64,000 nt of DNA, taken from positions 1-64,000 of the forward strand of contig CACFAG010000003.1 in assembly GCA_902564235.1 (NCBI GenBank), written 5' to 3'. Positions 2,886-61,016 of the stretch are shown here, piece after piece (within the stretch, counting starts at the first letter, position 1; the number at the start of each line of letters is the position of its first letter). Below the pieces are notes generated by a model. The model saw only the letters and a program-made list of their open reading frames with translations, was not told where the DNA came from and ran no database searches. The DNA is from an uncultured Prochlorococcus sp. Its GTDB lineage: Bacteria > Cyanobacteriota > Cyanobacteriia > PCC-6307 > Cyanobiaceae. A program made the translations under genes and the position numbers.

Positions 2886-4127
2886 TTATAAAAATACTTT
2901 GGCCCCCTCTGCTAATTGGGCTGCTTTCCCTTCTACATTTTCCCAAGGAAGTTCAAGATCTCTTCTACCAAAATGTCCATAGGACGCTGTCTTTCTGAAA
3001 AATTTACCACCCATTTGTTTGGGTAGATTTCTTAAGTTAAACTCTTTTATTATTGCTGCAGGTCTTAAATCAAAGTGATTTTTAATAAGCTCAGTCAAAT
3101 TAGCTTGTGAAATAACACCAGTATCAAACGTTTCAACCAGAATGGAAATCGGTTTTGCAACTCCAATTGCATAACTTAATTGTACCTCTGCCTTTTTTGC
3201 TAATTTTGCCTCAACTATACTTTTAGCTACATAACGTGCAGCATAAGCTGCTGATCTATCCACTTTTGTGGGATCTTTACCCGAAAATGCTCCTCCTCCG
3301 TGTCTTGCATATCCACCATAAGTATCAACAATGATTTTTCTACCGGTAAGCCCGGCATCTCCTTGAGGACCTCCTACGACAAATTTCCCTGTTGGATTTA
3401 CTAGAAATCTTGTTTTGTTAATGTTTGGTTTGATTTCTAAATCTTCAGTAGCAGGAATTACAACATTCGTCCATAAATCTTCTTTTATTCTTTGACGAAT
3501 TTCTTCTTCATTTGTGATCCCATCAATCTCAGGATTATGTTGAGTTGAAATTAAAATAGTATTTATCGAAACTGGGACACCTTTTTCATAATCAATACTT
3601 ACTTGAGTTTTACCATCAGGGAGGAGATAATTAAGGACTTTATCGTGTCTTACTTTGGCGAGTTGAATGGCTAATCTATGAGCTAAGCTAATTGGTAAGG
3701 GCATCAATTCAGGTGTTTCATCGCATGCATAGCCAAACATTATTCCTTGGTCACCTGCTCCGGTATTGTCTTCCAAATCATCGTTAATGTCTTCAGCTTC
3801 GTTCACTCCCTGAGAAATATCTGGTGATTGCTCATCAAGTGCTACTAAGACAGCACAACTATTTGCATCAAAACCACCTGCTTTATAACCTTCATATCCA
3901 ATTTCCTTAATTACATTTCTAACAAGTTTGATATAATCAACTTTTGCTTTTGAAGTTATTTCTCCAGTCAACAGACAAAGACCGGTATTAACAACAGTTT
4001 CACATGCTACTCTGCTTTCTGGATCTTCTGTTAATAAAGCATCTAAAACTGCGTCACTTATTTGATCACATATTTTGTCTGGATGACCTTCAGTGACAGA
4101 TTCAGAAGTGAAGATAAAATCACTCAT
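2886..4127 (-). CDS. metK: S-adenosylmethionine synthetase
   Basis: Makes S-adenosylmethionine from methionine and ATP in the cytoplasm. The 413-residue length and start ([29 protein letters not shown]) are typical of the family. The methionine/ATP-binding GHPDK and the signatures [12 protein letters not shown] and [23 protein letters not shown] are all present, so the enzyme should be active. It would supply methyl donor to the island methyltransferase and to chlorophyll and corrin synthesis. Confidence 0.98.
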
Positions 4128-4266
4128 TTAAACATAAAATTTGAATTTAATTTATCTTAAATTAGACTGTAGTTACTAAGCAATAATTGTAAATTAAAAT
4201 GGTTATTTAAGAATAAAAAGATTTTTGTTCTGATATTCCCGCACAAATAAATTAACTAGATTTAGT

Positions 4267-5352
4267 CTATTCAGCTGAAGGTGTTGGGATTTCTTCATTT
4301 TCATCAGTTTGTTCGAATAACATTTGTTTGTATTTGGCAGCCATTTCTTCAGCTTTACTAAAAACTTTTTGAGGGTCAGTTAGCATATCACCTGGTTCAG
4401 GTTCAAGAGCTTTTGTAGATAATGAAATTCTTCCTCTTTCCGAATCAAGGTCAATTATCATGACTTTCATTTGATCATTAACATTTAAAATATTATGGGG
4501 AGTCTCTATATGTTCATGACTGATTTCAGAAATGTGCAATAGACCACTAACTCCACCAATATCAATAAAGGCTCCATAAGGTTTAATACCTTTTACAGAA
4601 CCTACAACTACTTCGCCTACCTCAAGTCTATTCATTTTTTTCTCCACCAAAGCTCTTCTATGACTTAGTACTAATCTGTTCCTCTCTTCATCAACTTCAA
4701 GAAATTTTAAAGGCAAATATTCACCTTCTAAGTCATCTTTAATTTTTCGAGCACTGATATGAGAGCCTGGTATAAAACCTCTCAGGCCTTCTACCCTCAC
4801 AAGAGCACCACCTCTGTTTGTCGCAAAAACTTCAGAGTATATTGTGGCATCTTCTTTTTGGAGTTGTCTAACCCTTTCCCATGCTCTTTGATATTCAATT
4901 CTTCTAATTGAGAGGGCTAACTGGCCATCTTCATTTTCTTCACTCATTATGAAGAATTCCCTGCTTTCTGAAGGTTGTAAAACATCATTAAGACCTTCAA
5001 CTCTATTTATTGAAACCTCTTGAACAGGCATAAAAGCAGCTGTTTTTGCACCTATATCTATCATCGCCCCTTTGGGCTCTAAAGCGAAAACGGTACCTTT
5101 TACTAAATCACCAGGTTTAAAGTTATAGTCATACTTCCCCAAAAGTGATGCAAATTCTTCTTGTGTGAATCCTGCAGTGTCAAAATCTGTATTTGTTCTG
5201 CTAGAGGAAGAATCTGCTGAAGGTATATCGCTCTTCTCGAATGATAAATCTTCCTCATTTTGAGTGGCTGCATCATTATCTAGCTCAGACGAATTTTTAA
5301 TTTCTTGATCCTCAGAAAGCTTTTTAATGGTTTGGGAAGAATTTTCGTTCAT
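4267..5352 (-). CDS. rpsA: 30S ribosomal protein S1 (three S1 domains)
   Basis: An S1 protein of 361 residues, the shorter cyanobacterial form with three OB-fold S1 repeats: about residues 80-150 (FKPGDLVKGTVFALEPKGAMIDIG), 165-230 (EVFATNRGGALVRVEGLRGFIPGSH) and 245-315 (LEVGEVVVGSVKGIKPYGAFIDIGGVSGLLHIS). The N terminus is an acidic low-complexity tail of about 50 residues rich in S, D and E. It binds mRNA on the 30S subunit. Confidence 0.95.
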   Translation of the reverse strand: MNENSSQTIKKLSEDQEIKNSSELDNDAATQNEEDLSFEKSDIPSADSSSSRTNTDFDTAGFTQEEFASLLGKYDYNFKPGDLVKGTVFALEPKGAMIDIGAKTAAFMPVQEVSINRVEGLNDVLQPSESREFFIMSEENEDGQLALSIRRIEYQRAWERVRQLQKEDATIYSEVFATNRGGALVRVEGLRGFIPGSHISARKIKDDLEGEYLPLKFLEVDEERNRLVLSHRRALVEKKMNRLEVGEVVVGSVKGIKPYGAFIDIGGVSGLLHISEISHEHIETPHNILNVNDQMKVMIIDLDSERGRISLSTKALEPEPGDMLTDPQKVFSKAEEMAAKYKQMLFEQTDENEEIPTPSAE

Positions 5353-5461
5353 TTTTTGTAGCGCAGACTACCTAAGGTAGTTAGAAAGGAATGCTACTAG
5401 CCTGCAAACCAATAGCAAAAAACAATTGTGATATGTATTCTACACTTTAAGATGCTGAATT

Positions 5462-5941
5462 TTATGAAATTGAAGCTAATTGGTTTTTTGAACTTCCTTT
5501 TAGAGATTCAAGAGTAGAAATAAAATCTTTTACCCCATTAAATTTTCTGTAAACTGAGGCGTATCTTATGTAAGCTACTTCGTTTTCTTTCCTAAGATTT
5601 TTTAGTATTAATTCTCCGATTTGTGAAGATTTAATATCTTTGTTAGAGTCTTGTAAAATTTGAGATTCTATTCCATCTACGAAATTAATAATTGCTTCGC
5701 TGCTGAAGTTAGTCTTTTCGCAAGCTCTTGATATACCAGTAAATAATTTTTGTTTATCAAATAATTCTCTGCTGCCGTCTTTCTTTAAAACTGAAACTGG
5801 CATTGATTCCACTCTTTCATAAGTTGTAAATCTAAAGCTGCAATTTAAGCACTCTCTTCTTCTTCGAACACTCTTGCCACTATCGGCAGATCTTGATTCC
5901 AAAACTCTGCTATCTGTGTTTTGACAGGTTGGACACTGCAT
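5462..5941 (-). CDS. nrdR: transcriptional repressor NrdR
   Basis: A zinc-ribbon plus ATP-cone repressor of ribonucleotide reductase genes. The family start MQCPTCQN is residue 9 of the track ORF, so I moved the start to 5941. The zinc ribbon has two Cys pairs (CPTC, CLNC) followed by RFTTYERVE, and the ATP-cone begins with [17 protein letters not shown]. The length of 159 residues is normal. It sits downstream of psbT but is separated from it by a strong terminator. Confidence 0.95.
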
Positions 5942-6001
5942 GTGGTGAAATAAGCTGCACTTCAACTCTAATAGTAGAGTAATATCTTAATAATGGAAAG
6001 T

Positions 6002-6032
6002 AAAAAAAAACCTCTTGTTAAAGAGGTTTTTT
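6002..6032 (-). terminator. rho-independent terminator after psbBT
   Basis: A perfect stem of about 10 bp (AAAACCTCTT / AAGAGGTTTT) with a GTTA loop. It gives a U-run on the minus strand and an A-run mirrored on plus, so it ends the psbB-psbT transcript before nrdR. Confidence 0.9.
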
Positions 6033-6038
6033 CTAAGT

Positions 6039-6137
6039 TCATTTTCTATCGAATTTAGGCGGGTCTCTAAAGGCGACAGCAAAGAATAGGGTCACAACTG
6101 CGAGAGTTAGAATAAGAACGTAAGCAAAAGCTTCCAT
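6039..6137 (-). CDS. psbT: photosystem II protein PsbT
   Basis: A 32-residue single-helix PSII subunit, [29 protein letters not shown] plus a short basic tail, at the dimer interface in the thylakoid membrane. It is too short for the track. It lies 23 bp downstream of psbB on the same strand, the conserved psbB-psbT order, and is followed by the terminator at 6002-6032. Confidence 0.97.
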
Positions 6138-6160
6138 AAGATTAAGTAAATAAGTTTAGT

Positions 6161-7684
6161 TTAAACCCTTCCTGGGATTCTTCTTGTGGATTCGTCACCA
6201 AGTTTCTTGAATAAACCAAATTCAACTTGGTCGCCAATCTCAGCATCAATACCAGCAAAGGAATTTCTGTAAAGAGTTCTTGAAGCATGCCACCAGTGGC
6301 CAAACAAGAATAGCAATCCGAAACATAAATGTGCATATGTAAACCACGCTCTAGGTGAGCTTCGGAATACACCGTCAGATTTATATGTTTCTCTGTCAAA
6401 CTTGAATGCTTCTCCAAGTTGAGCCTTTCTAGCTAATCTTTTAACTACTGCAGGGTCTGTAAATGTTTGTCCATCTAGGTCACCTCCATAGATAGTTGCA
6501 GTGATACCAGTCTGTTCAAAAGAATACTTTGCCTCCGCTCTTCTAAATGGAATATCTGCCCTAACATTACCTTCTTTATCTTCAAGAATCACAGGGAAGT
6601 TTTCAAAGAAGTTAGGAATTCTTCTAACTTCTAATTCGTTACCTTCCTTATCTTGAAAGGCAATGTGACCTTGCCAGCCAGTTGGTAATCCATCACCATT
6701 AACAAGAGCTCCAACTCTAAATAGTCCTCCTTTAGCTGGACTATTCCCAACATAATCGTAGAAGGCTAACTTCTCTGGAATCGATGCATATGCCTCAGAT
6801 TTAGTAGCACCATCGTCTATTGCCGCTTGTACTCTTCTATTAATTTCAGTTTTGAAGTAACCTGAATCCCATTGATATCTGGTAGGACCAAAAAGCTCTA
6901 CTGGGGTTGTTGCTGAACCGTACCACATTGTGCCGGAAACAACAAAAGATACAAATAATACAGCAGCTAAAGCACTAGCAAGGACTCCTTCTAGACTTCC
7001 AAGTTTTAATGCTCTATAAAGTCTTTCTCCAGGTCTGTTGGTGATGTGAAAAATACCTCCAATAATACCCATAAGCCCTGCTGCAATATGATTCGCTACT
7101 ATACCTCCTGGATTAAAAGGATTAAATCCTTCTACTCCCCAGGAAGGGGCTACAGGTTCTACATGACCAGTTAAACCATAAGGGTCAGAAACCCAAATCC
7201 CTACGTTTGCACAATGAAAAGCTCCAAAACCAAAACACGTTAGTCCGGCTAGAAGAAGGTGAATTCCGAAAATTCTTGGTAAATCAAGAGCAGGCTCACC
7301 AGTTCTTGAGTCTTCCCACAAATCTAAGTCCCAGTATGTCCAGTGCCAAATTGAGGCTAACATCAATAGACCACTAAATACTATGTGAGCTGCTGCAACC
7401 CCTTCGAAACTCCAGAATCCAGGATCAACCCCAGTAGCACCGGTAATATCCCATCCGTTCCAACTACTTGTGATACCTAGCCTTGCCATGAAAGGCATGA
7501 CGTACATTCCCTGTCTCCACATTGGATTCAGAACAGCATCAGAAGGATCAAAAATGGCTAATTCATAAAGAGCCATTGAACCGGCCCAGCCGGCTAATAA
7601 TGCAGTATGCATAAGATGCACAGCAAGTAGTCGACCTGGGTCATTAATAACTACTGTGTGAACTCGATACCAAGGCAATCCCAT
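6161..7684 (-). CDS. psbB: photosystem II CP47 chlorophyll protein
   Basis: The 507-residue inner antenna of photosystem II. The start [37 protein letters not shown] is diagnostic. Six transmembrane helices carry the chlorophyll-binding histidines, and the large lumenal loop lies between helices V and VI. The C-terminal tail (RRIPGRV) is short. Transcribed with psbT; divergent from the ferredoxin gene across a 222 bp promoter region. Confidence 0.99.
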
Positions 7685-53391: not shown

Positions 53392-53457
53392 ACCTATATA
53401 AATTACGTGGGTATGTGTGTAAACACATAATGCACGTACTGTATATAGGTACCTATA
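53392..53457. promoter_or_regulatory. 59 bp nested palindrome plus abutting 14 bp palindrome upstream of vsr
   Basis: Three nested arms share one centre near 53421: ACCTATATA / TATATAGGT (53392-53400 and 53442-53450), ACGTG / CACGT (53405-53409 and 53433-53437) and TATGTGT / ACACATA (53412-53418 and 53423-53429). The outer right arm runs directly into TATAGGTACCTATA (53444-53457), a perfect palindrome. It sits 40 bp before the vsr start. Confidence 0.85.
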
Positions 53458-53496
53458 GGGTGATGGTGAGTATATTGTTTAAAACTGATTGGTTAG

Positions 53497-53913
53497 ATGA
53501 GTAGTGAAGTAATACATAAGGTAAGTGAACAGAGATCAAGGAATATGTCTGCTATTAAATCGAAGAATACAAAGCCTGAAATCAAGGTAAGAAAAGCTCT
53601 ACATTCTATGGGATATAGATTCAGACTTCATTCAAAAGATTTACCTGGGTCTCCAGATATCGTACTCCCAAAATATAAAACTGTTATCTTTGTCCACGGA
53701 TGTTTCTGGCATAGGCATGAGAATTGCAAGTATGCCTCCACTCCAAAAACAAGGCAGGAATTCTGGAACAAAAAATTCACAGAAAATATAAAAAGGGATT
53801 TGGAAATTCAGGATAAAATAAAAAATCTTGATTGGAGATCTGTTGTTATCTGGGAATGTGAAACAAAAAATATAGAAAATTTAAGAGATAAAATAATTGA
53901 TGTTTTTAGTTAA
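53497..53913 (+). CDS. vsr: very short patch repair endonuclease (Vsr)
   Basis: A 138-residue nicking endonuclease that cleaves at T:G mismatches left by 5-methylcytosine deamination. The N terminus RSRNMSAIKSKNTKPEIKVRKALHSMGYRFRLHSKDLPGSPDIVLPKYKTVIFVHGCFWHRHENCKYASTPKTRQEFWNKKF has the catalytic Asp (GSPDIVLP), the HGCFWH and H...C zinc/metal-site residues all in place. Its stop overlaps an ATG (53900) for the methyltransferase reading frame. Encoded with a Dcm, it may simply prevent C-to-T mutation or act as the nuclease of the system. Confidence 0.95.
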   Translation: MSSEVIHKVSEQRSRNMSAIKSKNTKPEIKVRKALHSMGYRFRLHSKDLPGSPDIVLPKYKTVIFVHGCFWHRHENCKYASTPKTRQEFWNKKFTENIKRDLEIQDKIKNLDWRSVVIWECETKNIENLRDKIIDVFS

Positions 53914-54001
53914 TAAATTGGTTGACTTTATAAATCTCGGTGCCATAGTTAATAAGAATTTAAGAGAAGAAAGATTCAAAAATCTCAAGTTAAAAAAATA
54001 A
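53900..54001 (+). other. upstream ORF ending on a -1 slippery heptamer (A AAA AAA TAA)
   Basis: 33 codons, from an ATG inside the vsr 3' end to a TAA that directly follows A-AAA-AAA read in phase. A -1 slip there enters the methyltransferase frame at ATA-AAT-ACT. One extra A would do the same. Predicted fused product 392 residues. Confidence 0.6.
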
Positions 54002-55077
54002 ATACTGTTCAAAATAAATTTGAATTTATTGATCTTTTTGCGGGTATAGGTGGCTTTAGAAAAGGGTTTGAATCAATAGGTGGAAATTGTGTTTTTACAA
54101 GTGAAATAGATAAATTTGCTCAAGAAACTTACAAAGCTAACTTCCAGACAAATCATTTATTTACTGGAGATATTAGAGATGTGGATACAAAATCAATCCC
54201 AAGACATGATGTTTTGCTGGCTGGGTTTCCATGCCAGCCTTTCAGCCTCGCAGGAGTAAGTAAAAAAAATTCACTCGGTAAATCACATGGTTTTGATTGC
54301 AAGATCCAGGGAACTTTATTTTTCGAAATTGCAAGAATTCTTGAGCATCATAGACCTAAGGCATTTCTTTTGGAAAACGTAAAAAATCTCAAAAGTCATG
54401 ATAAAGGCCAGACCTTTGAAACCATTCTTGATGTATTAGAAAATAAACTTGGTTATAAAGTTCAACATCGCATAATTAATGCAAAATCTTTTGTCCCTCA
54501 AAATAGACAGAGAATTTATATCGTCGGTTTTAGGGAAGAAAATAATTTTAATTTTGATGATTTAATTATTCCAGATATTTCTGATGGCCCAATATTATCT
54601 TCAGTGCTTCATCCAGAAGATGGATCCGAAACTTTTGAAGAACCATATACTATTCCTAATCTTTCAAAAGTAAATGAGAAATACACCATCACGAGTAAAT
54701 TATGGGATTATCTCAGAATGTATGAAAAAAAGCATAAAGCCAAAGGAAATGGATTTGGGTTTGGATTATGTAAGCGTGAAGATGTTGCTAGAACTTTATC
54801 TGCCAGATACCACAAAGATGGAGCTGAGATATTGATATATCAGGGGGATAAAAAGAATCCAAGAAGACTTACTCCAAGAGAATGCTCAAGATTGATGGGT
54901 TTTGATGAAAAAGGCGAATCAAACTTTGTAATTCCAGTTTCTGATTCTCAGGCATATAGACAATTTGGTAATTCGGTTGTTGTTCCTGTTATCGAAGAGA
55001 TTGCAAAATTAATGTCTAAAAATATTTTTGAAGATCTGAATAAAAAGAGAGAGAGAAATTTGCCTATATGTGCATAA
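53956..55077 (+). CDS. dcm: DNA (cytosine-5-)-methyltransferase, 5' end frame-broken at an A7 tract
   Basis: All C5-methyltransferase motifs are present: [15 protein letters not shown] (I), [11 protein letters not shown] (IV, catalytic Cys), FLLENVKNL (VI), [11 protein letters not shown] (VIII), [14 protein letters not shown] (IX) and [13 protein letters not shown] (X). The track begins at an internal GTG (54181) that drops motif I, which is wrong. The motif I frame is open from 53956 but has no ATG/GTG/TTG. An ATG at 53900, overlapping the vsr stop, encodes [26 protein letters not shown] and joins it after a -1 shift or an extra A at 53992-53998. Confidence 0.9.
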
Positions 55078-55091
55078 ATTCTTTATCAATT

Positions 55092-55901
55092 TTACTCAGG
55101 AACAAAATCTTCACCAAGCAACTTCTCAAGATCCTCTACCTCTAAGAGAGGGGTTGCATAATTTACAGATAAATTACTATATGCATCTGATAGTCTTCTT
55201 AAAGCCCAACTTCTCCCACTTTGAGCAAGAGACCCTTTTCTTGCAAAGCCACTTCCATTTGGATCTGAATAAACCTTTAATATAAATTTGTGCAGCGTAG
55301 TACTTCTTCTTATAGTTCCAAGTCCCCTTGTCCCTTCCCAAAAATCTCCCATATAACCAACTCCTTTTTTACTAAAATATATTTTAGATTCATCTCCAAA
55401 TGATCTGTACATTATGAACCCCTCTCTAATTGAATGTTCATAAATTTTCTTTTTCTTACTGCTTAATTTTATGTCACCCATTTCAGGAATATAATTTACT
55501 TCTGTACTTACATTCTTGAAGGAATCTGTAAGATCTTCGAAATAAACTAAAGCTAACCATGACCAAAATCCTACGTTATCCTCAAGATTATTATTTTGAA
55601 TGAATTCATTTAAACTTTTAAAAATATATCTTGATAGTTCAAATCTTGTGGGATGGACATAAGTTAAATTAAGTGAAGGCGCGTTCTTTATTTTTTTCGA
55701 TTCACCAGAATTTATTTTTGGTAGCTCTTTTAATAATTGCAATATTCTTGCATCAATATTTCCAGGTTTAATGTTATAAAGGTTTTTTTGCTCATCTATA
55801 TGTTGCCTGAGTAATCCTATAACTTCCATAAATTTTTCAACCCCATTTTCTGTAAGTTGATGCATTGCTATGGATTCTGGTCTTTTAATTATCTTGTTCA
55901 T
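55092..55901 (-). CDS. unrecognised protein, last gene of the GHKL operon (269 aa)
   Basis: Helical N-terminal part (TENGVEKFMEVIGLLRQHIDEQKNLYNIKPGNIDARILQLLKELPKI), a central FWSWLALVYFEDLTDSF block and a C-terminal basic/glycine region (KGVGYMGDFWEGTRGLGTIRRSTTLHKF, then GFARKGSLAQSGRSWALRRLSDAYSNL). No PD-(D/E)XK, HNH or PLD motif is visible. It resembles small R-M-associated DUF proteins (DUF6339-like) I have in mind, but I cannot confirm that. Its ATG overlaps the previous stop (TAATG), so it is translationally coupled. Confidence 0.8.
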   Translation of the reverse strand: MNKIIKRPESIAMHQLTENGVEKFMEVIGLLRQHIDEQKNLYNIKPGNIDARILQLLKELPKINSGESKKIKNAPSLNLTYVHPTRFELSRYIFKSLNEFIQNNNLEDNVGFWSWLALVYFEDLTDSFKNVSTEVNYIPEMGDIKLSSKKKKIYEHSIREGFIMYRSFGDESKIYFSKKGVGYMGDFWEGTRGLGTIRRSTTLHKFILKVYSDPNGSGFARKGSLAQSGRSWALRRLSDAYSNLSVNYATPLLEVEDLEKLLGEDFVPE

Positions 55902-56725
55902 TAATCTTGATTATTAAAACTCTTAAGTAATTGATTATCAAAATTATATTTTTTTATCCATGCATCACTCAATCTAGCAAGTACGTCTTGGAATTTATCA
56001 TATTCTTCTAATTTATCAAGCGAATCTATGCCTGAAGAACTTATGTCTTTAAAAGCACCAGGAACAAGTTCATTAGCATATTCAATCCAATTCTTAGCCC
56101 ATCCTTTTCTACCTTTATTTAGAAATGCATAAGAAAAAATTTTATCTAAAGCCAAAGGAAAAAAGCTACACATAAAGATAGGATTTGCTTGAATAATTGA
56201 TTCAATATTTTTTCTTGTAATAAACCCTTTTTTTGTTTTTAGTTTTTTATTGATTTTTAGAATTGGGCCAAATCTTGTTATGTCAACTTGGGCTATTCTT
56301 TTTCCTAAATCTTCGCCTTTGACTTCTAATAAGTTTTTTTGTTGAGAATTAGGAACTAATTTAATAGCACTTGTTTCAGCAATTCTTTGTTTAGTGATTG
56401 AATCAAATATAAAAACTTCAAATTTTGCAGAATCGCCTAATTGGTCAAAGCCGTAATTTTTAATATCAAATTTTAATGGGTAATCTACAATTTCATTGAG
56501 ATACAAATAACACAACAGATCATTCGCTGTGTCATAAGCGTAAATTCCTAATTGTAATTTCTCATCATCATATTTTTTTTCTTCTAAAAATTTAAATGAA
56601 GTAAGGCTAATTACTTTTTTATCATTAGAGACTTCCCAACTTATTTTATTTAATGGTATTAATTCTTTCGGGAAAGGATCACTAGAACGTACTCCTTTAG
56701 ATTTGTATTTTGATGCAATTTCCAT
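55901..56725 (-). CDS. unrecognised protein, third gene of the GHKL operon (274 aa)
   Basis: The N-terminal half is beta-rich (KISWEVSNDKKVISLTSFKFLEEKKYDDEKLQLGIYAYDTANDLLCYLYLNEIVDYPLKFDIKNYGF) and looks like an immunoglobulin- or C2-like sandwich; the C-terminal half is helical (FMCSFFPLALDKIFSYAFLNKGRKGWAKNWIEYANEL). No nuclease motif seen. It starts 1 bp after the ATPase stop and ends coupled to the next gene. Confidence 0.8.
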   Translation of the reverse strand: MEIASKYKSKGVRSSDPFPKELIPLNKISWEVSNDKKVISLTSFKFLEEKKYDDEKLQLGIYAYDTANDLLCYLYLNEIVDYPLKFDIKNYGFDQLGDSAKFEVFIFDSITKQRIAETSAIKLVPNSQQKNLLEVKGEDLGKRIAQVDITRFGPILKINKKLKTKKGFITRKNIESIIQANPIFMCSFFPLALDKIFSYAFLNKGRKGWAKNWIEYANELVPGAFKDISSSGIDSLDKLEEYDKFQDVLARLSDAWIKKYNFDNQLLKSFNNQD

Positions 56726-56726
56726 G

Positions 56727-58694
56727 CTAAATCAAAGTATATCTAGATTTATGGCTATAAGCTTTTTTTATTCCCTTAAGCTCCAAAGTAAATGATGTAT
56801 CTTCCACAAAAATTTCTATAGAAGTTTGTTGCCTACTAGAATTATCAATGCTACAGCCTGAATAAAATGAAATATCAGTTTGATTAAGAAGGTTGAAGTC
56901 AAATTCATCGACTTTTACAAATGCATCAGTATTCCCTCTTTTTTTTATGCCAAATTCTATTTTAATTTTTTTCCCACATATTTCTTCATTATTTATTGAA
57001 TTGATTACTAATTTATCTCCTACTTGATCTTGACTATAAATATGTTTCTTGGAAGGCGGTATATCTATATCTATTTCCGGTGATTCTTTAACTACATCTT
57101 CAACGTGATCATCTTCTTCAATTATCTTTTTTTCCTTTTTCTTTTGTTTGAATTTTAAACTGAAAAATTGACTCAATAAATCTTTGTTTTCATTTTCATC
57201 TTCGGCAAATATTAAATTGATTAAACGGTTAGAAACATTTCTGAATAGTTTTAAAATAAATTTTGCATTTTTAACATCATATTCTGCTTCTCCAGTAAAA
57301 GATTCACTATTAAATACAAGATGAGAAGACTCTTCGAAATTTGAAAGGAGCTTATTTAATTCACTTTTTGTAGATATTACGGCAACCATAATGTCTTTAA
57401 GATATTTGGCTTCTCTAGTGAAAATAGATTTTTTACTTTCATCCCATAAGATCTGATTTTTTCTCATCATCATCCCGCAAGTTGCTAAACCTTTCCTTTC
57501 AGAACGCATTTTTATCGCAACATAAAATTCATCATGTATTGGACCATCTTTATGATCAATTTTTACAGGTACAGTTAATTTTAAGTGAGAACCTTGATTT
57601 AATTTAGTCGCAATTTCTTTTAATGAGTATCCTTTTAAATCAAAATAATCTTCCGAAAAATTAGTTAATTCTCTATCTGGAATATCTAACAATTCCATAT
57701 CGATATTAATGTCACTAAGTCCTGCTCTGGTATTAATTACAAAATCCATCATTTCTTGGTTGACACCTTCAAATATTTCTTCAGAAAAACACTTTTTAGT
57801 TACTTCTCTAATATTATTTTTATTTATATTTGTATCCTCAATTTTTATTTCAAGGTCGCCCTCTGTAATAGGACAAAACCAATTCTTAATTGCAAATGGA
57901 ATCAATTCTTTAATATTAAATGCGTGAAACTCGGGGAATAAGAAATCAGTACCATATTCATCCCTAGGAGATTTAAAAAAATTTTTTAGGCATTTTTCTA
58001 ACGCTGGATCGACAGCTACTTTATTTCTTATTTCATTTTTTACAAAATATTCGTGGGGTTCTCTTAATTTATTTTTTCCATCAATTTTTGAATATCCGTT
58101 TTTCATACATCTACCCATAAATCTTGTTTCTTCATTAGGTTTTGAAATTTTTGATCTTACAAAAACCATCCATAGCTTTGAACATTTCCATGTTGCTAGT
58201 TTCCCTAAATTTCTACCCCCATCTGCATCTCTCCCTTTACTAAGGTTAGGATTCCCAGTCCTAAAAACATATTTATTCCAGTTTGAATGGTCGCTAGTTA
58301 ATATTCCATCTAATCCGTAAGTATTAAAGTCAGAAGCTTTTAGAGCTTTATAAGTGAACTTATAATCATCATTAATATTGCCACACTTAATTAATCTTTT
58401 ATAAATTCTATCGTTTACAAATTTTTGGTAAATCTTTTTTTCTAAAGGACTATTAAAGTGAATTACTTCTAGTTTTAATTGTGCCACTTTAGATGGGCCT
58501 GGAAGCTTAGCGTCCAAAGTATTTTGAACAAGTTCTCTTATAAAAGTTTCAGCTGTAGATTTACCCTCTTTTTCAAAATCTTTTTTCCCGCTTACATCAT
58601 TAATTGTCTTTTCTCCTATTGTTACCTCATCTGAGTCCCATTGGAACTCATCTAAAGAACTTAAATCAAGTTTTAAATCAAATATTTCCTGCAT
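56727..58694 (-). CDS. GHKL-type ATPase (Hsp90/MutL/MORC-like), defence-associated
   Basis: 655 residues. The ATP-binding Bergerat fold is visible as TAETFIRELVQNTLDAKLPG (the E-x-x-x-N-x-x-D-A N-box, about residues 46-65), then GRNLGKLATWKCSKLWMVFVRSK (a possible G2-like segment). The middle has a YFVNTRAGLSDIN-type region and the C terminus is a probable beta domain. A lysine/glutamate-rich linker (KQKKKEKKIIEEDDHVED) splits the two halves near residue 525. MORC/MutL-like ATPases of this size, beside methylases, Vsr and small unknowns, are known from prokaryotic restriction-like systems. Probably clamps DNA on ATP binding. Confidence 0.85.
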   Translation of the reverse strand: MQEIFDLKLDLSSLDEFQWDSDEVTIGEKTINDVSGKKDFEKEGKSTAETFIRELVQNTLDAKLPGPSKVAQLKLEVIHFNSPLEKKIYQKFVNDRIYKRLIKCGNINDDYKFTYKALKASDFNTYGLDGILTSDHSNWNKYVFRTGNPNLSKGRDADGGRNLGKLATWKCSKLWMVFVRSKISKPNEETRFMGRCMKNGYSKIDGKNKLREPHEYFVKNEIRNKVAVDPALEKCLKNFFKSPRDEYGTDFLFPEFHAFNIKELIPFAIKNWFCPITEGDLEIKIEDTNINKNNIREVTKKCFSEEIFEGVNQEMMDFVINTRAGLSDINIDMELLDIPDRELTNFSEDYFDLKGYSLKEIATKLNQGSHLKLTVPVKIDHKDGPIHDEFYVAIKMRSERKGLATCGMMMRKNQILWDESKKSIFTREAKYLKDIMVAVISTKSELNKLLSNFEESSHLVFNSESFTGEAEYDVKNAKFILKLFRNVSNRLINLIFAEDENENKDLLSQFFSLKFKQKKKEKKIIEEDDHVEDVVKESPEIDIDIPPSKKHIYSQDQVGDKLVINSINNEEICGKKIKIEFGIKKRGNTDAFVKVDEFDFNLLNQTDISFYSGCSIDNSSRQQTSIEIFVEDTSFTLELKGIKKAYSHKSRYTLI

Positions 58695-58697
58695 AAT

Positions 58698-58940
58698 TTA
58701 CTCTTTTAATTCGAAATGATTATTCTTTTTATTTTGCGAATCAAATTTTCTGCATACATCATTAACTTTCTCTCGTAATGCTTTTTTTATCTGATCTGAT
58801 TGTGATTTGCTGTATGTATAGTTACTTTTGTTACCAAGATTTCCAACAAGTTCCAAAGCTTTTAAAGCCTTGGGAACCCTTTTGTTGGCAAGTTCAATAA
58901 AATGTTCTGAATTATTTTTTGGAGTCAATTTTGAAGTCAT
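58698..58940 (-). CDS. small island protein A2 (80 aa), paralogue of the next gene
   Basis: NSEHFIELANKRVPKALKALELVGNLGNKSNYTYSKSQSDQIKKALREKVNDVCRKFDSQ. Clearly related to the 58984-59235 product. All helical. 3 bp before the ATPase start, so it belongs to the operon. GCGTACAT lies just upstream (58969-58976). Function unknown; similar small proteins accompany bacterial methylase operons in my recollection. Confidence 0.75.
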   Translation of the reverse strand: MTSKLTPKNNSEHFIELANKRVPKALKALELVGNLGNKSNYTYSKSQSDQIKKALREKVNDVCRKFDSQNKKNNHFELKE

Positions 58941-58983
58941 TATTTACAATTATTGCACGCTATTTAAGCGTACATATTTAATT

Positions 58984-59235
58984 TTAGGCTTTTAAAATAA
59001 AAGTCTTAGAATCATTATTTGTCCTAGGACGAAATCCAGAAAGAGTTTTATCCAATTCTTTTGTAAGAAATCTCTTAATTTCTACAACGTCTTTTTCAGA
59101 ATAGTCTTGTTTCCTTGAAGATAATCTTGATAAGTTTTCAAGTGATTTGGTTACTTTTTCAATTCGCTGATTAGCTAATCTGCAGAAAGCTTCTCTGCTG
59201 GACTCCGTAATTTGCGCTGCATTAGTTTCCGTCAT
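58984..59235 (-). CDS. small island protein A1 (83 aa)
   Basis: I start at MTETNAAQITESSREAFCRLANQRIEKVTKSLENLSRLSSRKQDYSEKDVVEIKRFLTKELDKTLSGF because the track's 17 extra N-terminal residues are unlikely hydrophobic coding from the promoter. It aligns with the next gene: F-x2-LAN-x-R-x2-K-x3-x-LE-x3-L-x5-YS...IK-x-L. First gene of the operon, facing a palindrome-rich promoter region. Confidence 0.7.
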   Translation of the reverse strand: MTETNAAQITESSREAFCRLANQRIEKVTKSLENLSRLSSRKQDYSEKDVVEIKRFLTKELDKTLSGFRPRTNNDSKTFILKA

Positions 59236-59262
59236 AATTATATTTAAAAGTATTATTACTAT

Positions 59263-59325
59263 ATACATTAGATAGATGTATGTCAAGAATTACATATATA
59301 GGCGTACATTTGTAATATGAACGTA
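59263..59325. promoter_or_regulatory. divergent operator/promoter region
   Basis: Between the A1 start and the 59366 gene: ATACAT-TAGATAG-ATGTAT (59263-59281), then imperfect arms TATATAGGCGTACAT / ATATGAACGTATATA around 59298-59330. GCGTACAT recurs at 58969-58976 before A2. Fits an operator read by an island regulator, possibly A1/A2. Confidence 0.5.
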
Positions 59326-59365
59326 TATAATTTCCTTGGAAGAACTTAATTAAATTAACTCACAA

Positions 59366-59752
59366 ATGACCGATCTAGATAAATTTGAAGGGATGAATCC
59401 TCCAGAGTTTGATTTAATCTCAAGAAAAATTCATGATTTACTTAGGGATCATGCTCGATTTATAGAATTAGTAAATTCACTGTCTGGATTTTTACCTGAA
59501 TATGAATTGCTCATGGAATATCTAAAGGAAAATAATATTGTTTTTCAAAAAGATGATATCGATGAAAAAATATCTCCAGAGATACTTACGCTGGAAAGTA
59601 ATCCTGTTCTCATGAGGAGAATATTGGAACGGATATCTGAACAATTTTATTTAAGTATGAGAGGTCTTGAAAAACTTGATGAAGCATTATCTCACTCAAG
59701 GAATCTTTTTGAAAAAAAATTTTTTTTGGAGAGGAATTTCCACAACTCATAA
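59366..59752 (+). CDS. unrecognised island protein (128 aa)
   Basis: MTDLDKFEGMNPPEFDLISRKIHDLLRDHARFIELVNSLSGFLPEYELLMEYLKENNIVFQKDD then a helical half with ESNPVLMRRILERISEQFYLSMRGLEKLDEALSHSRNLFEKKFFLE. Acidic to neutral, no motif. Divergent from the GHKL operon; candidate regulator, antitoxin or accessory protein. Confidence 0.7.
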   Translation: MTDLDKFEGMNPPEFDLISRKIHDLLRDHARFIELVNSLSGFLPEYELLMEYLKENNIVFQKDDIDEKISPEILTLESNPVLMRRILERISEQFYLSMRGLEKLDEALSHSRNLFEKKFFLERNFHNS

Positions 59753-60886: not shown

Positions 60887-60944
60887 CTGAATAATTTCTT
60901 TGTGCGATAGTGGCAATCTCAATGATACCAAGCTATCCCGCGAG

Positions 60945-61016
<72 letters not shown>

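Follow-up and report, generated by a model that had tools for sequence, protein, structure and literature searches.

We describe here an island on contig CACFAG010000003.1 of the uncultured Prochlorococcus sp. assembly GCA_902564235.1 that, with moderate confidence, we read as encoding a restriction-modification (R-M)-like immune system. A Dcm/EcoRII-type C5 DNA methyltransferase (dcm) would set the mark, a very short patch repair endonuclease (vsr) would provide the accompanying repair, and an operon encoding two small proteins (S83 and S80), a GHKL ATPase (A), and two partner proteins (B and C) would form the methylation-gated, ATP-dependent restriction half. The window is the whole stretch of DNA analyzed, 64,000 nucleotides (positions 1 to 64,000 of the forward strand), and comes from a Prochlorococcus-like genome. 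Designations beginning with L are our own handles.

vsr and dcm lie on the plus strand and converge on the minus-strand operon S83-S80-A-B-C, whose products are 83, 80, 655, 274, and 269 amino acids (aa) long (Table 1). All of these genes, and the palindrome ahead of vsr, were confirmed where an earlier note on this sequence had placed them. The operon is compact: 3 bp separate S80 from A, 1 bp separates A from B, and B and C are coupled by a TAATG overlap. The cassette recurs in a second Prochlorococcus assembly (AH-321-P05; L041), 93.6% identical in nucleotide sequence and with every frame kept. Between the two copies, the ratio of nonsynonymous to synonymous substitution rates (dN/dS) is approximately 0.12 for vsr, 0.09 for dcm, 0.17 for C, 0.13 for B, and 0.16 for A. 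The frames are therefore under purifying selection, and the five genes are maintained rather than products of chance. Neither the window cassette nor this second copy showed a cognate restriction endonuclease (REase) gene.

At the sequence level, the strongest evidence for an R-M-like role of the S-A-B-C module is its natural exchange for Mza in sister strains. In L127, L128, L131, and L135, vsr is 85 to 99% identical and a window-type dcm is 89 to 90% identical to the window genes, and an Mza set stands in place of C-B-A-S-S. The replacement set comprises a 474-aa GHKL protein, Z1, DUF4420, and a 700-aa protein. Complete Mza sets (MzaB, Z1, DUF4420, and AIPR) occupy the same vsr/tRNA-Thr hotspot in these four genomes and in L136 and L040. 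Profiles for AIPR, MzaB, and MzaD match the six sister genomes with E values down to 1e-97, 1e-79, and 1e-14, respectively; the three S-A-B-C carriers, among them the window genome as assembled, gave no match. The kinship with Mza-type systems and the lack of Z1 and AIPR in the window cassette, both put forward in the earlier note, held up in these comparisons. Besides the window, the module is carried by L132 (the L041 contig) and L133; in the latter (3173-7326), A, B, and C are only 34 to 36% identical to the window proteins, with dcm at 93% and the S proteins at 87 to 88%. Either fast divergence or replacement of A-B-C alone may have produced this pattern, which is as expected of a fast-diverging defense module.

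A further partner occurs on a Sphingorhabdus plasmid, where a methyltransferase 60% identical to the window dcm, with the similarity extending through the target-recognition region and its GNGFGF motif, is found with vsr and an R.EcoRII homolog (PDB 3hqg and 1na6; E about 1e-39). Judged by sequence, then, one methyltransferase-Vsr lineage has three alternative partners: EcoRII, Mza, and S-A-B-C. It is chiefly from the Mza swap and the EcoRII pairing that we classify S-A-B-C as a restriction-type module, probably the attacking half of a restriction-like immune system, and predict that dcm recognizes CCWGG. Because the same pair occurs with each of the three partners, exchanging modules behind a single mark would offer a direct test of the part that prokaryotic MORC-like ATPases play in restriction. 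The island also shows that a streamlined marine cyanobacterium can exchange defense modules at a tRNA hotspot.

The earlier note's call of dcm as a C5 methyltransferase was correct, but the gene has no in-frame ATG, GTG, or TTG before S-adenosylmethionine-binding motif I (53956-54181). Seven Prochlorococcus versions of dcm share an ATT at 53974, which suggests that this codon serves as a rare start. A programmed −1 frameshift on an A7 run was rejected, as sister genomes lack the run. A 27-aa frame (53918-54001) overlaps the start region and is not kept in all versions.

ATPase A has intact GHKL motifs: the N-box RELVQNTLDA at residue 53, DFNTYGL at 122, GRNLGK at 160, and GTD at 248. The four motifs (N-box, G1, G2, and GT) and the S5 region that follows line up across 17 proteins. 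In Iyer, Abhiman and Aravind (2008; PMC2292703), an ExxxH motif in the C-terminal part of S5 is the signature of paraMORC2, a family found mainly in cyanobacteria and Gram-positive bacteria in R-M neighborhoods. In A this motif is EESSH at 454, and E454 and H458 are invariant in both alignments made. The PADLOC model PDC-M33A matches residues 49 to 302 (E = 2.5e-22), and no Pfam model reaches the protein. Direct searches with A, B, and C in Pfam, NCBIfam, PHROGs, and the PDB returned no family, and no relatives were found in viral contigs or a phage collection. Its motifs and the PDC-M33A match identify A as a GHKL/S5 ATPase of the paraMORC2 family. The GHKL/MORC-like nature that the earlier note assigned to the 655-residue protein is thus borne out at the level of Bergerat motifs.

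C gives no direct match to the DUF6339/PDC-M33C models. Profile-profile alignment with hhalign connects it to DUF6339 (PDC-M33C) with a probability of 89 to 90 and an E value of 2e-6 over 209 to 217 columns. The score of 51 compares with at most 25 in ten column shuffles, and the reversed control was negative. At the profile level, C is a remote DUF6339 homolog. Its AlphaFold2 (AF2) model is all-helical (predicted local distance difference test [pLDDT], 68; predicted template modeling score [pTM], 0.70) and has no PDB neighbor. B did not match PDC-M33B at E ≤ 1, and hhalign against M33B gave a probability of 0.6 to 0.8. For B, the AF2 model is of poor quality (pLDDT, 59; pTM, 0.46), with a beta-rich N-terminal part and a helical C-terminal part. 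A minigluzincin-type peptidase assignment from weak Foldseek matches (E ≥ 0.2) was rejected on account of the poor model and because no HExxH motif was seen. Searches of A, B, and C for PD-(D/E)XK, HNH, and PLD matches found none, and the conserved positions of the B and C families form no nuclease pattern and no acidic/lysine signature.

S83 and S80 are paralogs, and in 49 of 78 loci a member of this family immediately precedes A. The earlier note had located both small genes correctly; what changes is their standing, since they are paralogs that belong to the system. By this recurrence, the S proteins constitute a conserved fourth component, and the family is identified as a partner of MORC-like ATPases. 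On an Ensifer plasmid (L121:6998-9637), S precedes a different, GHKL-like protein of 800 aa beside an N6/N4 methyltransferase; the motifs of that protein were read by eye, and it does not match the A profile.

The wider distribution was taken from 80 A-containing loci found by scanning GTDB genomes with one N-box pattern, so the set is biased toward N-box-bearing proteins. Neighborhoods were tallied over flanks of up to 9 kb, and some contigs are short. S-A-B-C is the recurrent unit among these loci, and a C5 methyltransferase gene (dcm) lies within 9 kb of A in 52 of the 80, in keeping with the linkage that the earlier note had proposed. In one clade of 20 loci, every member has dcm and 13 have vsr; beyond these, most of the loci show no recurrent gene. 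A, B, and C of the window type were also found in another picocyanobacterium (L037), in the Planctomycetota (L042), in SAR86 (L043), and in an archaeon of the Nitrososphaeria (L044); L043 and L044 have A-B-C and a C5 methyltransferase gene in one operon. Six window-type sequences form a single clade in the ATPase tree (support, 99), with long branches, and all four other loci of the window's clade with flanks to inspect include a C5 methyltransferase gene. A Planococcus plasmid carries vsr, dcm, S, M33A, M33B, and M33C (DUF6339) together. Within the genus, ATPase A, distant versions included, is present in 7 of 61 genomes searched.

Two further arrangements were noted. A protein of 700 to 1,200 aa adjoins S-A-B-C in 13 loci (L050, L058, L063 to L065, L073, L078, L079, L082, L083, L096, L106, and L119), often directly downstream of C; the proteins scanned gave RNA polymerase alpha-CTD-like and HhH matches. 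Two GHKL modules lie side by side in the islands of L027, L033, L034, and L038 and of L029, L035, L036, and L039. These islands combine a constant A-B-C(DUF6339)-689-aa methyltransferase cassette with a second cassette, which is S-A-B-C of the M33 type in some and Z1-DUF4420-A-B-C in others.

In the mechanism we propose, the Dcm/EcoRII-type enzyme would methylate the host at the predicted CCWGG sites, and Vsr would mend the T:G mismatches that arise by deamination of 5-methylcytosine (5mC). A would dimerize via its GHKL domain upon ATP binding, and S, B, and C would help to load it onto DNA without the host mark, where it would close as a clamp and stop the incoming DNA. The stop may consist of a block of replication or transcription or of the recruitment of a nuclease encoded elsewhere; an ATP-gated clamp on unmethylated DNA, acting in either way, is favored because A, B, and C show no nuclease signature. 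The sequences themselves show the gene set, the intact ATPase motifs, the purifying selection, the recurrent linkage to C5 methyltransferases, the exchange with Mza, and the Vsr/glycosylase replacement. The marking of self by methylation and the clamping of DNA, both already proposed in the earlier note, are inferred, as are gating by methylation, what becomes of the targeted DNA, and any protection from phage. A more specific version, which we hold only tentatively, would make S-A-B-C a nuclease-free restriction module. Here S, B, and a DUF6339-type protein would load a MORC-like ATP clamp, which would read CCWGG methylation and silence or block unmethylated DNA uncut, and the module would be interchangeable with EcoRII and Mza behind one methyltransferase-Vsr pair.

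Several observations weigh against an R-M-like system of this kind. Profile, motif, and model checks found no nuclease motif in A, B, or C, and the window genome is 68% complete, so that an unlinked nuclease is possible. Ordinary REases stand beside S-A-B-C elsewhere, of AlwI type in Planococcus and of MutH/Sau3AI type in L053, L057, and Priestia. A Bacillales subclade (L055, L059, L060, L093, and L095) has A-B-C with no methyltransferase detected nearby, so methylation is not obligatory across the whole family. This subclade also speaks for a different, rather doubtful explanation, in which S-A-B-C would act against phage on its own, responding to a cue other than host methylation (such as a protein or replication structure of the phage), and dcm-vsr would be a separate, orphan modification/repair pair sharing the hotspot. 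The occurrence of A-B-C beside McrB-like, GmrSD, UvrD, and type I genes and its exchange in the island as one unit fit such a module. It is harder to reconcile with the C5 methyltransferase present in every testable member of the window's clade and in all 20 members of the second clade, and with a swap partner, Mza, that is itself of the methyltransferase/Z1/AIPR type.

The missing nuclease could instead be hidden in B, in C, or in the C-terminal domain of A as an unrecognized DNase, which would make the module an ordinary ATP-dependent restriction enzyme. We regard this as unlikely, even though the earlier note's inference and the paraMORC3/Shedu proteins, which have their nuclease in cis (PMC12137116), lean that way. 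C is predicted to be all-helical and without a PDB neighbor, and neither a signature in the B and C families nor a PD-(D/E)XK, HNH, or PLD match points to a nuclease, with the reservation that the B model is poor. The earlier note also counted Vsr among the possible effectors, and Vsr is an RE-fold endonuclease and a constant island neighbor. It might cut the DNA that the ATPase has trapped, by analogy with the stimulation of Vsr by MutL in E. coli, an interaction described in PMC2292703; we give this very little credence. The protein is Vsr by its score (TIGR00632, 141 bits against a cutoff of 98; Pfam/NCBIfam), and 30 of the 266 genomes of the genus carry the gene. Among the 80 A-containing loci, vsr occurs in 27 of the 52 with dcm and in 0 of the 28 without (Fisher p = 6e-7), so that dcm accompanies vsr in 27 of 27 cases, and the majority of S-A-B-C loci are without vsr. 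In four dcm loci without vsr (L044, L047, L092, and L106), an HhH-GPD glycosylase of one homologous group takes its place, and vsr also accompanies the Mza and EcoRII partners. Mismatch glycosylases can take over the job of Vsr beside 5mC methyltransferases. Given that vsr is found only beside dcm and that glycosylases stand in for it, Vsr is best read as repairing deaminated 5mC rather than as an effector. Equally improbable is a MORC-like silencer that compacts or represses unmethylated foreign DNA that already sits in the chromosome, or regulates genes by methylation state, instead of defending against phage. DNA compaction is the established action of eukaryotic MORCs and is discussed in PMC2292703, but the patchy, mobile-island distribution and the exchange with Mza point to defense.

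Table 1. Features of the island and its tRNA end (positions in the window)
Feature	Position	Strand	Remarks
Palindrome	53392..53450		Arms 53392-53409 and 53433-53450, 18 nt each, loop 23 nt; ahead of vsr
vsr, very short patch repair endonuclease, 138 aa	53497..53913	+	PF03852 3e-32, TIGR00632; constant island gene
dcm, C5 DNA methyltransferase, EcoRII/Dcm (predicted CCWGG) type	53974..55077 (frame open from 53956)	+	PF00145 3e-89, PRK10458 419 bits
C, 269 aa, predicted all-helical	55092..55901	-	Remote DUF6339/PDC-M33C homolog by hhalign
B, 274 aa	55901..56725	-	No recognized family; at PDC-M33B position
A, 655-aa GHKL/S5 ATPase, paraMORC2 family by motifs	56727..58694	-	PDC-M33A 2.5e-22 and motifs
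S80, conserved small helical protein, 80 aa	58698..58940	-	Directly upstream of ATPase A
S83, second S-family paralog, 83 aa, first operon gene	58984..59235	-	
128-aa gene, divergent from S83	59366..59752	+	No known family
Tyrosine-recombinase integrase of the island, 224 aa	60157..60831	-	PF00589 1e-6
tRNA-Thr(GGU), island integration end	60944..61016	-	Followed by tRNA-Tyr and aroQ

The cassette is flanked on the left by a conserved stretch with a SIMPL-like gene and vsr and on the right by the integrase, tRNA-Thr(GGU), tRNA-Tyr, and aroQ. A tRNA-derived direct repeat (at least 13 nt) marking the far attachment site was looked for and not found. The integrase is 321 to 351 aa long in sister genomes, against 224 aa in the window; with this shortening, the island may no longer be self-mobile here. 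In the palindrome, 16 of 18 arm positions are paired (inner part, ACGTG..TATGTGT..ACACATA..CACGT), and it is kept ahead of vsr in most sister islands, whichever module comes next. It is a probable promoter or operator of the vsr side and likely a control element common to the sister islands. The 128-aa gene is 92% and 83% identical in the two other module carriers and absent from the Mza-type sisters; it travels with the S-A-B-C module.

Several known systems resemble the window set in part. Mza, an experimentally validated defense system, likewise has a restriction-type module with a GHKL ATPase next to the same dcm-vsr pair, in sister strains at the same tRNA-Thr site, but its ATPase is of another GHKL family (MzaB, about 475 aa), and Z1, DUF4420, and AIPR are all absent from the window cassette. 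The EcoRII/Dcm R-M system with Vsr shares the methyltransferase lineage and vsr; the window has no EcoRII endonuclease and has S-A-B-C in its place. The match of dcm to the DrmMII model (445 bits) would fit DISARM, but no other Drm model (DrmA, DrmB, or DrmC) matches. Shedu type I-D/paraMORC3 (VcSduA; PMC12137116) likewise has a GHKL ATPase, whose part in anti-phage defense was put to experimental test in that system; A has no DUF4263 nuclease in cis (no Pfam match in A). paraMORC2, as presented in PMC2292703, agrees with the window in GHKL plus S5, the invariant ExxxH, methyltransferase and Vsr neighbors, and a cyanobacterial and Gram-positive bias; the window lacks the SFII helicase and RE-fold genes, and the text consulted does not name B, C, or S as partners. 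Methyltransferase/Vsr/GHKL sets as such were already described there in 2008. PDC-M33 has the same gene order and sizes and a contiguous A-B-C operon, often beside dcm and vsr (as on the Planococcus plasmid); A matches M33A, and C is homologous at the profile level. It differs in that window B and C fall outside the M33B and M33C models and that S, dcm, and vsr are not in the PADLOC models seen. PADLOC PDC entries are untested predictions, and no published experimental test of PDC-M33 was found in the literature. The island supplies a function-bearing context for the unvalidated candidate PDC-M33/paraMORC2/DUF6339. The earlier note's proposal of a new system therefore needs narrowing: the ATPase family (paraMORC2) and the A-B-C layout (candidate PDC-M33) are already known, and the window set is a divergent subfamily rather than an unnamed kind. 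New are this subfamily, with a B and C that escape the existing models, the S proteins as a constant part, the replacement of Vsr by a glycosylase, and the natural swap with Mza.

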